From Candidatus Hydrothermota bacterium (GTDB lineage Bacteria; Hydrothermota; Hydrothermia; B15-G9; DRBW01), in the NCBI GenBank assembly GCA_021158525.1, contig JAGGUL010000091.1, forward strand, positions 1 through 33,143: DNA of 33,143 nt, read 5' to 3'. The notes under the pieces were generated by a model. That model did not search any database. It saw only the letters and a list, made by a program, of their open reading frames with translations, and had not been told where the DNA came from. Positions within the stretch are counted from its first letter, which is position 1. Every line of letters begins with the position of its first letter. Both the position numbers and the translations under genes were made by a program. Shown here one piece after another: positions 135 to 23,479 of the stretch.

Positions 135-2348
135 TTATCTCACGATAACGAATTTTGCCACCCTTTCCTCCGGGCCAGCCTTGAGCCTCAAGAAGTAAAG
201 GCCGGAGGGCAGATTCAGATCGATGGGAATCCTGTGGTCCCCGCCGTCCATTTGTCCGTCAAGAATAGTTGACAGCTTCCTGCCCGAAACGTCATAGAGA
301 TCAAGAGAGACCCGGGAGCCTTCCCCACAGGAGAACTGAACCATCGCCTTTCCCCGCGAGAAAAGGGGCCTGACGGATAGCTCCGGGATCCTGGAATCCC
401 CGCGTACCTCTGCGACCTCCGTGAGCTTGTTCCGGTAAAGGGAAAGCCTAAGGTTCAGGCCGACGGAGGTCGTGAGGTTCTCCTCGTTCGAGATCACGAC
501 GAAATAGCTGCTGCCAGAGGGTCTTAATTTGACATCTATTACCGTGTCATCCGTGATTTTAGAGCCTACCAGAGCCCTGAAGGAGAGCCCCTCGGTGTAC
601 AAGGAGTAATTCGTCGAATCCATCACAAAGAGATATATGGAGCCGACGTCGCCGACTTTCTCACAGTAAGTGTGATAAAACCCCTCATCGCCGGTGTTTC
701 TCCTGGCGCGGGCGTAGCCGTGGAGTATCTCATATCGGAGGTCGACATCGATTTTAACCTTATACAGCGGAAACCCGCTTTCCTCCTGCGGCTCGAAGAT
801 AGGAAAGGTGGCGAAGTAGGGCAGTGCCACGGTCTTGTAGTAATGCCCGCCCGTCTGACTATAGGAGATGATCTGAATTATCCCCGAAGGATCTGAGGGG
901 TAGTCGCCGAGGGGTGAATTTACGTGAAAATAGAAATTCCGGAGGTTTCCGAGCTCGAAATACGCCCTGCCCAGCTCATCGGTAAATCCCCAGCAGGACA
1001 CTTCGTAACCCCCGTACCATCCCTCGCTATAGTGAAGTATCCTGGCACCGTCCACAGGCAGACCCCTGAGGTCCTCAACTTTGACGAAGAGAGAGCAGGT
1101 GTTGGAATAATGCCCCGTGACGGTTCTCACCAGTCCGTCGGACCTCCATTCCATGACTGAAGAGACCTCTTTGCCCCCGCCGTGGTCGTGATCATAGGCC
1201 GTTCGCGGGTCGTTTATGTGAGTAGCGCCGAATCCGAGATCCACCTGATACTCATGCCATCCCCCGTCGTAGAATTCGTTCCAGACGTGATCCTCTGCCA
1301 GCGTGAAGACCGAGGTCGTCGGTATCAGACAGGCCCTGCAGGCGGCTGCCAGCAGATCCTGGAGCTCACCGCAGTTCCCGTTGTGTTCGTGCGCTATGAC
1401 GTTGGGCTGAATCGGCCTGTTGCCCGATGCTGGCTCGGGAACCGTCCTCGAAGCCCAGTTCCCTATTATATCAAGGGCTGTCTGGGTCGAATCAAATTCC
1501 CTTCCGCCGGGAAATACCTGTGGAGTGTCGGTGACAACCCAGAGCAGCCTGGCGCTTCTGATTTTCTCCATGAGAAGGGGATATCCTGAATCGGCCTCAT
1601 ACAGAAGGTATTCGCGCCAGAATTTGTTGTAAACATATTCGTCCATGCGGGGCGACTCGTCGGAAAGCTGGGGATGAACGATGTAGAAGTAATAGTAATA
1701 GGGATCCAATTCCCTCTCCACTGTATCGCCTTCCACCTGAACTCTGTATCGCACTGTCGAATAATAATCGCCCCCAGGGCTGTCGTAATCGACTATATCG
1801 ACGAAATCCAGTGAGTCATCGTTTCTGTATAAAAGCTCCGCATTAACGAGCAGCAATTCAGGATCAAAGGTCGAATCCTGAAGGATCTCCGGGCTGACGT
1901 GGGCCACCGTAAAAGCAATTTCATCCCTGAACCTCTCTTCAGGCGGGTCTATGATCATCTGAGCATAGATTTCCTGATAGGTGGAATCAAGCCGCTGAAA
2001 GTTATCGAAAAGTTCATCTCTCACCCACCGAGGAGCAACGTTGAGAGCTTCGACGGCGAGAGGGACCAGCGCGGAGTCGGGCATATATGTCATGTTGATC
2101 TGGTCCCCGCGACCGACGGAAAAGGCCGCCCGTTCCTGTTGAGGCAAAAGGAGAGCAAGGTTCAAAGTGTCGCAGAGAACCCACTCGTATGTATCCTTCA
2201 CGCCCTCCTGGGGGCTCAATTCCAGTTGAACGGGCTCTTCATACGTCGTGGCGAGTTCTATTCCCCTTACTTCGGGGATCTTCCCGCCTGTGAAAACCGT
2301 CTTTCCGGGGATAGAAAGCAACTGAAGCGAAATTAACCAGGATATCAT
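135..2348 (-). CDS. Secreted transglutaminase-like protein with C-terminal sorting domain
   Basis: A 737-residue exported protein. A short hydrophobic N-terminus (residues 2-14) is a weak signal peptide. Residues about 285-385 hold a transglutaminase-like (papain-fold) core with the expected triad: Cys326 in 'GNCGELQDLL', His354 in 'EDHVWNEFYDGGWH' and Asp370 in 'YQVDLGFG'. Residues about 420-480 look like a carboxypeptidase-regulatory-type beta-sandwich. Residues 660-737 form a type IX-like C-terminal domain ('VSLDLYDVSGRKL ... PSGLYFLRL ... KFVIVR'). The fold suggests a protease or amidase/crosslinking activity on proteins outside the cell, but the substrate is unknown. ATG is preceded by GGGGAGG and a TTGTTA-17-TATAAT promoter. 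The downstream partial gene follows after 11 bases. Confidence 0.85.
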   Translation of the reverse strand: MISWLISLQLLSIPGKTVFTGGKIPEVRGIELATTYEEPVQLELSPQEGVKDTYEWVLCDTLNLALLLPQQERAAFSVGRGDQINMTYMPDSALVPLAVEALNVAPRWVRDELFDNFQRLDSTYQEIYAQMIIDPPEERFRDEIAFTVAHVSPEILQDSTFDPELLLVNAELLYRNDDSLDFVDIVDYDSPGGDYYSTVRYRVQVEGDTVERELDPYYYYFYIVHPQLSDESPRMDEYVYNKFWREYLLYEADSGYPLLMEKIRSARLLWVVTDTPQVFPGGREFDSTQTALDIIGNWASRTVPEPASGNRPIQPNVIAHEHNGNCGELQDLLAAACRACLIPTTSVFTLAEDHVWNEFYDGGWHEYQVDLGFGATHINDPRTAYDHDHGGGKEVSSVMEWRSDGLVRTVTGHYSNTCSLFVKVEDLRGLPVDGARILHYSEGWYGGYEVSCWGFTDELGRAYFELGNLRNFYFHVNSPLGDYPSDPSGIIQIISYSQTGGHYYKTVALPYFATFPIFEPQEESGFPLYKVKIDVDLRYEILHGYARARRNTGDEGFYHTYCEKVGDVGSIYLFVMDSTNYSLYTEGLSFRALVGSKITDDTVIDVKLRPSGSSYFVVISNEENLTTSVGLNLRLSLYRNKLTEVAEVRGDSRIPELSVRPLFSRGKAMVQFSCGEGSRVSLDLYDVSGRKLSTILDGQMDGGDHRIPIDLNLPSGLYFLRLKAGPEERVAKFVIVR

Positions 2349-2380
2349 TTTTTCCAGACCTCCCCTTAAGTGACATCTAC

Positions 2381-2409
2381 ATTATACTTCCAGGTCCTTC
2401 CCCTAACAA
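2381..2409 (-). promoter_or_regulatory. Sigma-70 promoter of the transglutaminase-like gene
   Basis: Reading on the minus strand, TTGTTA (2404-2409), a 17-base spacer, then the consensus TATAAT (2381-2386). The start codon lies 32 bases downstream with a GGGGAGG ribosome-binding site between, so the leader would be about 27 nt. Sequence match only. Confidence 0.6.
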
Positions 2410-2418
2410 GAAGTCGCT

Positions 2419-2634
2419 TTACCTGCTTTCCGTTTTTACCTTACCGAAATAATGGGCACACCGCCGGCAATAATGGGTTGGAGCATCGGCATATCTGAGA
2501 ACGCCCGCCAGCATGATCTCTCCCCTTTCGGCTTTCTCCATGTCTTCAGGCTTTGGGTCCCCGTAAACAATGGGTATAACCTGGTCCTTCTGTCCACATA
2601 AGGGACAGGAAGGTTTATCAGAAGATTCCGTCAT
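2419..2634 (-). CDS. Small zinc-ribbon protein
   Basis: A 71-residue protein with two metal-binding pairs, CPLCG near residues 10-14 and CRRC near the C-terminus ('HYCRRCAHYFG'), as in small zinc-ribbon proteins. No catalytic motif is visible and I do not recognise the family. A longer frame begins at 2691, but I choose the ATG at 2634. It has a GGGGG Shine-Dalgarno seven bases upstream, and a TTGTAT-17-TAAAAT promoter places the -10 box (2667-2672) inside the longer frame, so a transcript from it would begin near 2660, downstream of the longer start. It sits divergent from the LapA-like gene and upstream of the transglutaminase-like gene, which has its own promoter. Confidence 0.65.
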   Translation of the reverse strand: MTESSDKPSCPLCGQKDQVIPIVYGDPKPEDMEKAERGEIMLAGVLRYADAPTHYCRRCAHYFGKVKTESR

Positions 2635-2666
2635 TTTAGCCCCCTTTGAGCTGCTGCTCTTTTCCC

Positions 2667-2695
2667 ATTTTACACCCGCCGCTTCCGGCATACAA
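2667..2695 (-). promoter_or_regulatory. Promoter of the zinc-ribbon gene
   Basis: Minus strand: TTGTAT (2690-2695), 17-base spacer, TAAAAT (2667-2672). Expected start of transcription is near 2660, about 25 nt ahead of the chosen ATG at 2634. Confidence 0.5.
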
Positions 2696-2712
2696 GTTCT
2701 CAGAATTCCGTC

Positions 2713-2741
2713 TTGGAAAAATTCACCTCAAAGGTTATCCT
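2713..2741 (+). promoter_or_regulatory. Probable promoter of the LapA-like gene
   Basis: TTGGAA (2713-2718), 17-base spacer, TATCCT (2736-2741), followed by GGAGGG and the ATG at 2762. The -10 box is off consensus, so this is a moderate prediction. Confidence 0.4.
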
Positions 2742-2761
2742 TATAGAAAACGGAGGGAAAG

Positions 2762-3154
2762 ATGAGGTTTTCATTTGCGTGGATTATCCTGTATGTCATA
2801 ATAGGTGGACTTTTCCTCATGATCAACGGCGACCTGGCCCTGGCGAGATTCGACGTTAACCTGCTTTTTGGAAGGGCGGAAGTTCCTCTTCTGGCACTGT
2901 TTATCGCCTTCTCGGTCCTGTGGATGATAGTGCTGCTCCTCGTGGACGCCATGAAAGTCGATAATTTGAGCCGCGAGGTGGAAAAATTAAAGGCACAGCT
3001 TCACGATTTACAATCGGAGGAGATATCGGCTTTAAGGGGATATTTCGAGGCTCAGCTGCAGGAAGCGGCCGATGAAATCCTGGGAAGGATCGAAAACCTG
3101 GAGGGCATGCTCGAGAACTTCATGAAGGACACGGCTAATCCTGAATCCTCCTGA
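2762..3154 (+). CDS. LapA/DUF1049-like membrane protein with coiled coil
   Basis: A 130-residue inner-membrane protein. Two hydrophobic segments (about residues 5-22 and 43-62) flank a loop with 'NGDLALARFDVNLLFGRAEVPLLALF', the pattern of the LapA domain (DUF1049). The rest (about 65-125) is a charged heptad-rich coiled coil ('DNLSREVEKLKAQLHDLQ...'). LapA-domain proteins in proteobacteria help couple lipopolysaccharide assembly to envelope demand; whether that role applies here is unknown. GGAGGG lies seven bases before ATG. The 3' end overlaps the 3' end of murA on the opposite strand by 20 bases, a convergent overlap with no room for separate terminators. Confidence 0.7.
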   Translation: MRFSFAWIILYVIIGGLFLMINGDLALARFDVNLLFGRAEVPLLALFIAFSVLWMIVLLLVDAMKVDNLSREVEKLKAQLHDLQSEEISALRGYFEAQLQEAADEILGRIENLEGMLENFMKDTANPESS

Positions 3155-4394
3155 TATCGGCGCCCAGGCTCGAGAGCTTCTTTTCGAAGTCCTCGTATCC
3201 TCTGTCTAAGTGATAGATCCTGTCGATCAGAGTCTCTCCCCTGGCGATGAGCCCGGCCAGGACGAGGGCAGCGGAAGCCCTGAGATCGGAAGCCATCACC
3301 GGCGCGCCGGTCAAATGTTTCACTCCCTTTATGACAGCCGTGTCGCCCTCGACCTTTATATCGGCTCCCATTCTCTGAAGCTCAAAGGCATGTCTGAAAC
3401 GATCGGGATAAATTCCCTCTTTTATAATGCTCGTGCCGTCGGCCACCGTGAGCATCGCCATAAACTGGGCCTGCATATCCGTCGGGAAACCTGGATAGGG
3501 CGAGGTGTGAATCGTGAGAGGGAGGATTTTGCCGCCATTTGACACGGTGATCGTCCTATCTTCTTCCTCGACGGTAGCCCCGGCCTGCCTCAGCCGGTCG
3601 ATGACAGTCCTTATGTGATCGAGACAGGCTTCCCTGATCCTGACCTCACCCCCTGTCATAAAGGCGGCCACGGCGTATGTCCCCGCCTCTATCCTGTCGG
3701 GTATGATCCGGTATTCACCCGGCGAACGAAGGGCTTTTCCACCCCTCACGATTATCTCATCAGTGCCCTCGCCCTCTATATCGGCGCCGCACAGCTTGAG
3801 AAAATCGGCCAGGGCCACTATCTCCGGCTCCTTGGCTGCATTGGCGATAAGGGTCTCTCCTTCGGCGAAAGTGGCGGTCATCAACAGATGGGCCGTGGCC
3901 CCCACCGACTTCCTGTCAAAGGCGATCTCGACACCTTTGAGTTTCTTAACCTTGGCGTTGATGTAACCGTGCTCGAGCTTGATGGAAGCGCCCATGGCTT
4001 CGAGGCCGGAAATGTGAAAGTCCACAGGCCTGGGGCCAAAGGCACAACCTCCGGGCAGGGAGACGGAGGCCTTTCCCATTCTGGCGAGGAGAGGTCCCAG
4101 CACGTAGATGGAAGCCCTCATCTTCCTGACGATCTCGTAGGGAGCCGTGCTCGAGGTGAGATCTGACGTGTCCAGGGTCCACACTCCTTTTTCGAGGCGC
4201 TCCACCTTCGCACCGAGCAATCTGAGGAGCTCCGCCATGGTGAAAACATCCATGACATCGGGAACATTAAGAAGTCTGACCTCACCTTCGACGAGCAGGG
4301 AAGCTGCCATGATGGGGAGAACGGCGTTTTTGGCGCCGCTGACCCTGACCTCGCCCTTTAACCTGGCCCCACCTTTTATGAGGAATTTATCCAT
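3135..4394 (-). CDS. murA: UDP-N-acetylglucosamine 1-carboxyvinyltransferase
   Basis: MurA transfers enolpyruvate from PEP to UDP-GlcNAc in the cytoplasm, the first committed step of peptidoglycan synthesis. At 419 residues it is the usual length. Lys22 and Asn23 of 'SGAKNAVLP' are the conserved substrate-binding pair. 'SLPGGCAFGPRPVDFHISGLEAMGA' contains the catalytic, fosfomycin-sensitive cysteine, Cys117, so the enzyme is expected to be of the Cys (not Asp) type. No Shine-Dalgarno precedes the ATG. Instead TTGAAG-17-GATAAT ends seven bases before it, suggesting a leaderless mRNA. The upstream gap contains a hairpin-flanked repeat element. Confidence 0.97.
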   Translation of the reverse strand: MDKFLIKGGARLKGEVRVSGAKNAVLPIMAASLLVEGEVRLLNVPDVMDVFTMAELLRLLGAKVERLEKGVWTLDTSDLTSSTAPYEIVRKMRASIYVLGPLLARMGKASVSLPGGCAFGPRPVDFHISGLEAMGASIKLEHGYINAKVKKLKGVEIAFDRKSVGATAHLLMTATFAEGETLIANAAKEPEIVALADFLKLCGADIEGEGTDEIIVRGGKALRSPGEYRIIPDRIEAGTYAVAAFMTGGEVRIREACLDHIRTVIDRLRQAGATVEEEDRTITVSNGGKILPLTIHTSPYPGFPTDMQAQFMAMLTVADGTSIIKEGIYPDRFRHAFELQRMGADIKVEGDTAVIKGVKHLTGAPVMASDLRASAALVLAGLIARGETLIDRIYHLDRGYEDFEKKLSSLGADIRRIQD

Positions 4395-4439: not shown

Positions 4440-4462
4440 GTCCGTTGGGGAGTCCGTTGGGG
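4440..4462. repeat. Tandem 11-bp direct repeat
   Basis: GTCCGTTGGGG occurs at 4440-4450 and again at 4452-4462, with one base between. The second copy runs into the left arm of the first hairpin of the repeat element. It may be a slippage or insertion scar. Confidence 0.6.
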
Positions 4463-4750
4463 TCGGGTCGTGCAACCTGCACGACCCGACCCCATAAAAA
4501 CTCCATGAGGGACAAAGATTTAAAAAATATTTAACTGTGCGCATAATTTTTCCGGCCACTTTCAAGAGGGGTAAAACTGTCGTATCCATTCCGCCACAAC
4601 GGATACAGGAGATTATAGGTGCATCGCCAATCCATTGTCTCACAATGAAAAGAGAGAGCGTGCGTCATGCACGCGGGGGCATGCTACAACCTCTTGAGCT
4701 TCAAATAATTACCTGGGGTCGGGCCGTGCAACTTGCACGGCCCGACCCCA
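4459..4750 (+). mobile_element. Hairpin-flanked repeat element, copy 1 (REP/MITE-like)
   Basis: A unit of about 290 bases fills the gap between murA and the PPDK regulator. Each end is a perfect hairpin with 16-bp arms (GGGGTCGGG-T/C-CGTGCA and its complement) around a 3-base loop: 4459-4493 (loop ACC) and 4715-4749 (loop ACT). The interior has further small hairpins: GTATCC 4582-4587 with GGATAC 4601-4606, ATTGT 4634-4638 with ACAAT 4642-4646, and GCGTGC 4658-4663 with GCACGC 4669-4674. The reverse complement of 23135-23423 aligns along the whole length, by eye close to four fifths identical. No convincing protein is encoded, so this is a non-coding dispersed repeat, possibly mobilised in trans by a Y1/REP-associated transposase; that enzyme is not in the window. 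Confidence 0.75.
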
Positions 4751-23134: not shown

Positions 23135-23423
23135 GGGGTCGGGTCGTGCAACCTGCACGACCCGACCCCAAGTAATTTACTGAAACTCAGTAAGTTACAG
23201 CACACCTCCGCGTGCGTAACGCACACTCTCTCTTTCCGTTGTGGGACAAGGGATCGGCGATGTGCTTCTAATCCTCTGTATCCATTGTGGCGGAAGAGAT
23301 ACGGCAATTTTACTCACTTGAAAGCGGTCGAAAAAATTTTGCGCACAGTTAAATATTTTCCAAAATTTTGAGGTTCAAAGAGTACTGAGGGGTCGGGGGG
23401 TGCAACCTGCACGACCTGACCCC
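23135..23423 (-). mobile_element. Hairpin-flanked repeat element, copy 2 (inverted)
   Basis: A second copy of the unit at 4459-4750, in opposite orientation, between nrdJ and the lamin-tail gene. The hairpin at 23135-23169 is perfect (16-bp arms, loop ACC). The one at 23389-23423 has mismatches (GGGGTCGGGGGGTGCA against TGCACGACCTGACCCC). Reading the minus strand, AAATATTTAACTGTGCGCA, the CCGCCACAA box and the inner hairpins recur in the same order as in copy 1. Several paired positions differ but still pair (for example GTATCC/GGATAC becomes GTATCT/GGATAC, a G-U pair). A further 7-bp hairpin TTACTGA-GTT-TCAGTAA is present here. Confidence 0.75.
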
Positions 23424-23450: not shown

Positions 23451-23479
23451 GAGCGCGGTCCGCAAAGCGGACCGCGCTC
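23451..23479 (-). terminator. Probable terminator of nrdJ
   Basis: A perfect 13-bp stem (GAGCGCGGTCCGC and complement) with a 3-base loop lies 43 bases after the nrdJ stop. On the minus strand it is followed by a T/G-rich tract (TTCTGTTGTTGGTTTGTTGG), so it is a plausible but not ideal intrinsic terminator. Confidence 0.5.

Follow-up and report, generated by a model that had tools for sequence, protein, structure and literature searches.

Hairpin-ended elements of near-constant length as probable satellites of a single Y1 transposase in a Candidatus Hydrothermota genome

Hairpin-ended elements in the window and the genome

The window, a stretch of 33,143 nucleotides of contig JAGGUL010000091.1 from a Candidatus Hydrothermota (WOR-3) bacterium, carries two copies of a hairpin-ended element in mutually inverted orientation, at 4459 to 4749 (element 1) and 23135 to 23423 (element 2). 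In each, two 35-nt palindromes (16-bp arms, 3-nt loop) enclose a core of ∼220 nt (Table 1). The initial annotation of this DNA had described two such inverted copies, and both the coordinates and genome-wide matches far above chance confirm them. It had also placed a 16-bp hairpin at every end: the stem is perfect in three of the four, but the right hairpin of element 2 has mismatches. The homologous non-coding core was correctly recognized, the two cores being 79% identical with no reading frame shared across copies. The GGGGGG mismatch variant of the right hairpin of element 2 is common to copies C7c and C81 and to the stray contig L078 (see below); its occurrence at one end of all four suggests that hairpin and core travel together.

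Table 1. Positions of the component parts of elements 1 and 2 in the window
Feature	Position	Strand	Remarks
Element 1 left terminal hairpin	4459..4493		Perfect 16-bp palindrome, 3-nt loop ACC on +
Element 1 left dyad AA-N5-TG-N5-CA-N5-TT, AACTCCATGAGGGACAAAGATTT	4499..4521	+	Putative protein-binding site; conserved across 9 core clusters
Element 1 left inner motif GTGCGCA	4537..4543	+	43 nt from hairpin
Element 1 central spacer	4544..4665		Non-coding; sequence variable, length near-constant
Element 1 right inner motif GTGCATG (on -)	4666..4672	-	42 nt from hairpin
Element 1 right dyad, AATTATTTGAAGCTCAAGAGGTT on -	4688..4710	-	End-module comparison and consensus
Element 1 right terminal hairpin	4715..4749		Arm GGGGTCGGGCCGTGCA, loop ACT on +
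Element 2 left terminal hairpin	23135..23169		Perfect
Element 2 left dyad, AATTTACTGAAACTCAGTAAGTT	23174..23196	+	End-module comparison
Element 2 left inner motif GTGCGTA	23212..23218	+	End-module comparison
Element 2 central spacer	23219..23339		Core comparison
Element 2 right inner motif GTGCGCA	23340..23346	-	End-module comparison
Element 2 right dyad, TACTCTTTGAACCTCAAAATTTT on -	23362..23384	-	End-module comparison
Element 2 right terminal hairpin	23389..23423		13/16 pairs; GGGGGG mismatch variant

A separate, perfect GC-rich hairpin at 23451 to 23479, GAGCGCGGTCCGC-TTT-GCGGACCGCGCTC, is followed by a T-rich stretch on the minus strand. It lies directly past a ribonucleotide reductase-like gene, is kept in the sister species and is likely the terminator of that gene.

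The genome (2.0 Mb in 129 contigs) was searched with the arm GGGGTCGGGTCGTGCA, allowing ≤2 mismatches, as the initial annotation had proposed. The search gave many copies, not two: there were 42 matches per strand, whereas a reversed-pattern control gave 1 and 0. The 42 hairpins make up 18 doublets, four solo hairpins and two that border a transposase gene. With nine doublets of the sister species and one on the stray contig, 28 complete doublets are known, all of 289 to 293 nt. The copies form nine core clusters, with low identity between clusters, and are intergenic as far as simple ORF calls tell. Among the genomes of 60 relatives, the hairpin was found in one, G001, the sole genome of the same genus (hereafter the sister species). 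One region, G000:C7:322-8080 (L044), has three copies inside 8 kb; the remaining sequence there was unmatched in the sister genome, and its element content differs in the misbinned strain described below. Elements may mark the junctions of a variable island in this region.

The transposase unit and the shared end module

The only Y1_Tnp gene of the genome (C4:2441-3301, 286 aa) lies between two perfect palindromic hairpins, one on each side. An earlier suggestion that a RAYT or similar gene be sought was thus well founded: one RAYT-like gene was found, bounded by the same hairpins as the doublets. The protein matches Y1_Tnp at 48 to 51 bits (cut-off, 23) and carries NNHYHLL and RYIVLNPVRA (the HUH motif and the tyrosine). 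The NCBIfam model REP_Tyr_transpos scores 77 bits, slightly below its cut-off of 80, and transpos_IS200 scores 20 bits against a cut-off of 55. At C-terminal residues 209 to 268, HTH_Crp_2 scores 32 bits, above its cut-off, and several further HTH models fall below theirs; all of these HTH matches are partial. A PDB sequence search with the transposase gave no match. The whole unit is 1226 nt long, and the fixed spacing of the doublets therefore does not apply to it.

Among the 60 relatives, the closest transposase is that of the sister species, which is 87% identical and has the hairpin at the same downstream place; its contig starts before the position where the upstream hairpin would appear. 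A dN/dS of 0.054 between the two species shows, at the level of codon substitutions, purifying selection on the transposase gene. The dS of this pair (L042 2441-3301 versus L076 106-951) is ∼1.3, three times the 0.41 of the neighbouring gene.

Doublets and transposase unit share an end module that, with the fixed length, was absent from the initial annotation and is a new observation here. Read inward, the hairpin is followed after 4 to 5 nt by a 23-bp dyad, AA-N5-TG-N5-CA-N5-TT, and then by GTGC at 41 to 43 nt from the hairpin. This placement of GTGC holds at 60 of 60 ends, a set that includes the two ends of the transposase unit here and the one end visible in the sister species, with a distance of exactly 42 nt in 51 of them, and is seen in ∼1% of shuffled ends. 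The inner motif, 42 nt in, has the consensus GTGCRYA. When one representative per core cluster (nine) and the transposase unit were each sampled at both ends, the consensus was AA.Tt.tTg....tcAa....TT...a.A........tGTGCGtata, which holds 22 bits besides GTGC. The module is absent from solo hairpins.

No covariation was found between the variable pairs of the dyad, and a dyad folding as a hairpin was rejected on this ground. Conservation without covariation indicates a sequence motif, as expected of a double-strand protein site. CAA-N4-TTR, a motif of the ends, is similar to one half of the IHF consensus. Sites of the form TTG-N4-6-CAA are in excess between the hairpins (39 versus 9.9 expected in all copies; 8 versus 3.2 with one copy per cluster), and some of them lie mid-core and not just at the ends, e.g., at 4635 to 4645 of the window; these may be additional dyad-like sites.

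The shared end anatomy of doublets and transposase unit is the main ground for calling the doublets satellites. Both window elements are probably non-autonomous satellites of the genome's single Y1/HUH transposase, which is RAYT-like, carries a C-terminal HTH region and is of the TIRYT kind. The suggestion that the elements resemble REP doublets, are non-autonomous and are linked to a Y1-type transposase has accordingly fared well, given the many copies and the single RAYT gene enclosed by matching hairpins. We propose the following. During replication, the HUH domain would cut the palindrome in its single-stranded hairpin form. The dyad on double-stranded DNA would be bound by the HTH region or by an HU-type protein, either of which would also pair both ends. 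The whole unit would be copied to intergenic sites, and the near-constant length would reflect the need for a set spacing of the two ends in that complex. Solo hairpins would probably arise from doublets that lose one hairpin and the spacer between the hairpins. The link between HTH region and dyad is a guess, because the transposase of G042, a WOR-3 relative, aligns over the HTH region and its short terminal inverted repeats (TIRs) leave no room for a dyad.

Shared sites, constant length and hairpin pairing

Comparison of flanks placed eight doublets, element 1 among them, and the transposase gene at the same sites in both species. At a further site, a solo hairpin here (C35) corresponds to a full doublet (C29) in the sister species. 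Empty sites in relatives had been suggested as a check, and one was found: the site of element 2 lacks the element in the sister species, measuring 86 bp versus 414 here, with flanks too diverged for a junction to be read. The surroundings of C7 and C47 were sought in the sister genome and not found, and C81 sits at a contig end; none of the three is informative for this comparison.

A second comparison is provided by contig L078 (QMLL01000329.1), a 3.07-kb stretch of which (425-3499) matches this WOR-3 genome at 99% identity and which also contains an element of this type. The contig has been assigned to a Guaymas Basin Deltaproteobacteria MAG, probably by misbinning. At the site of copy C7b it has no element, and another copy lies close by; its surroundings differ, so recombination could also account for this difference. 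In both absent-element cases (element 2 and C7b), the flanks are too rearranged for a clean junction. By position, nearly all of the sister-species copies are old and have stayed in place, and element 2 has no counterpart there. With most sister copies at shared sites, movement is rare now, although probably not extinct, and the ends could be kept for a host role.

Length and sequence have evolved differently at these sites. Between the hairpins of seven orthologous doublets, 27% of positions are substituted and the net length change is 4 nt in 1529. The non-coding flanks at shared sites show 21% substitutions, and their length has changed by a net 209 nt in 968, or 134 nt without the worst-aligned flank (C123a upstream, 75 nt). 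Net length change per base is thus ∼80-fold greater in flanks than in cores (∼55-fold leaving out the C123a upstream flank). The spacing between the two GTGC motifs is 127 to 130 nt in 28 of 28 doublets. Identity between orthologous pairs is 74 to 77% in the ends and 71% in the cores. These comparisons are most simply explained by selection that acts on length and little on sequence, and we infer that a set spacing needed between two bound ends explains the near-constant length.

Much of this evidence would also suit once-mobile elements that have become fixed host sites, where the domesticated transposase or HU-type proteins would occupy hairpins and dyads at a set spacing, with roles such as DNA organisation or insulation of neighbouring genes. 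Eight doublets and the transposase gene occupy the same sites in both species, with one further doublet/solo site; sequence drifts but length does not; the genome has two HU-family genes; and the copies are intergenic by simple ORF calls. We nevertheless regard this account as possible rather than likely: ends barely better conserved than cores are weak evidence for a vital site, there has been turnover at unshared sites (element 2, probably C7b), and collapse to a solo hairpin was tolerated at C35. A bolder form of the idea, in which a domesticated HUH-HTH transposase and its satellites constitute a fixed-geometry chromosomal system of ∼20 sites, with spacer length alone selected and a host role beyond transposition, is speculative and, in our judgement, doubtful.

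The near-constant length might instead result from common descent and a low indel rate, with no selection. The doublets may all stem from one ancestor, and some small gaps do exist in the cores, but this explanation is improbable given flanks that, though less substituted than the cores, have changed so much more in net length.

Satellites of the Y1 transposase remain our preferred reading of the elements. Among the terminal hairpins, 49 of 56 pair perfectly, and arm changes in orthologous hairpins are double (compensatory) in seven cases versus single in two. In 3 of 14 orthologous hairpins, the two species carry the loop in opposite orientations. Template switching yields arm homogenisation with spacer inversion in the absence of selection (PMC8604942), and hairpin compensation can arise in this way (PMC8604942, PMC8794818). 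Loop inversions beside compensatory changes are the signature of polymerase template switching (PMC8604942), and selection on pairing is therefore not proven. Pairing is kept by compensatory change, and the loop inversions suggest that template switching has acted alongside selection. Selection on single-strand structure, as first claimed, was in this respect overstated, although the compensatory changes behind it are real. The claim that an ACC loop follows the chromosome strand used four hairpins and does not hold across all copies, in which both orientations occur. Loop orientation as a strand signal was rejected: orientations are mixed, and the excess of GGT over ACC (16 to 7) scored against unidirectional genes includes orthologs that are not independent.

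The terminal hairpins are strong, and the whole element folds with a z score of −8.1. Core folding gave z scores of −0.7 and −1.7, and over all 28 cores the mean is −0.80 and −0.66 on the two strands, like that of shuffled sequence. Covariation, which had been proposed as a check, is present as compensatory change in the hairpin arms but is weak in the core (8 double changes versus 3.1). The small hairpins formerly described in the core are weakly supported by these values. An Rfam search of the window returned rRNA and tRNA only, with no match to the element. A decayed gene in the core, which the initial annotation had named among the cases that would count against it, was rejected, and so was a hidden gene, as there is neither a common frame across copies nor a three-base periodicity of substitutions.

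A dispersed structured non-coding RNA with hairpin caps, also raised at first, is very unlikely on this evidence. The z score of the whole element, the compensatory changes in the hairpins and the weak excess of double changes in the core are compatible with it, but core folding on either strand is like that of shuffled sequence, Rfam gave no match, the conserved dyad lacks covariation, and template switching can produce hairpin compensation (PMC8604942, PMC8794818). Least credible of all is a MITE of another transposase with inverted repeats, linked to the Y1 gene by chance: the symmetric ends resemble ordinary MITE inverted repeats, but the sole Y1 gene has identical hairpins and, equally far from them, an identical subterminal module, an arrangement found again in the sister species.

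Comparison with known systems

Unlike IS200/IS605 elements, in which TnpA usually occurs in several mobile copies, the transposase here is present in one copy and falls below the cut-off of transpos_IS200. Escherichia coli BIMEs, some of which contain IHF sites, resemble the doublets in having two palindromes linked by an internal stretch with protein-binding motifs (putative here), but their sequence differs. Doublets also resemble REPINs and REP doublets (Bertels and Rainey 2011, PMC3116915) as intergenic, dispersed, paired palindromes in a genome with a single Y1 transposase. In contrast to REPs, there is no consistent GTAG/GT[AG]G at the hairpin foot, where adjoining bases are variable; the spacer is ∼220 nt with conserved ends, versus 20 to 100 bp for most REP dimers (PMC3733652); and there are ∼20 copies rather than the usual >100 (PMC2817692).

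More distant transposases of the phylum have TIRs with GGGGTCAGG, which also form inverted pairs elsewhere in their genomes, of 104 to ∼263 nt. Three such WOR-3 genomes (G042, G044 and G045) share with the present one related transposases and inverted GGGGTCAGG repeats around short non-coding spacers, but their ends are non-palindromic, lengths range from 104 to ∼263 nt, and no shared subterminal module was seen.

Di Nocera et al. (2013) described RAYT-like genes flanked by inverted repeats (TIRtrons), with copies elsewhere as singles and dimers; some of the repeats have GGGGWSAS and some are self-complementary (PMC3733652). Most TIRtron genes fall in TnpA_Y1 subclass 2.1, with C-terminal HTH domains, and REP-like sequences were not found beside subclass 2.1 genes (Quentin et al. 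2018, PMC6006769). The present system shares with these TIRtrons or TIRYTs a RAYT-like Y1 gene, a C-terminal HTH region, flanking inverted repeats with a GGGG-start motif, and repeats dispersed as singles and dimers (here 4 solos and 18 doublets). Compared with GGGGWSAS, the arms here read GGGGTCGG (7 of 8 positions), a few arms read GGGGTCAG, and the TIRs of the relatives read GGGGTCAG. The difference is that the ends here are a full 35-nt palindrome followed by the dyad and GTGC and that the dispersed pairs are of near-constant length. A dyad/GTGC module behind palindromic ends, with near-constant length, was not found described in the limited open-access literature consulted (including PMC3733652 and PMC6006769).

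How RAYT-type transposases spread repeats, what bacteria gain from keeping them and what the HTH domain of TIRYT-type proteins targets are unsettled matters in this field. The ends described here are defined to the base: the palindrome would serve the HUH domain, the dyad may be recognized by a double-strand binder, and the spacing is near-fixed. A length that is under selection while the sequence is not is an uncommon signal and one that is directly testable. The system fits the TIRYT type, and the dyad/GTGC module and the fixed length set it apart.
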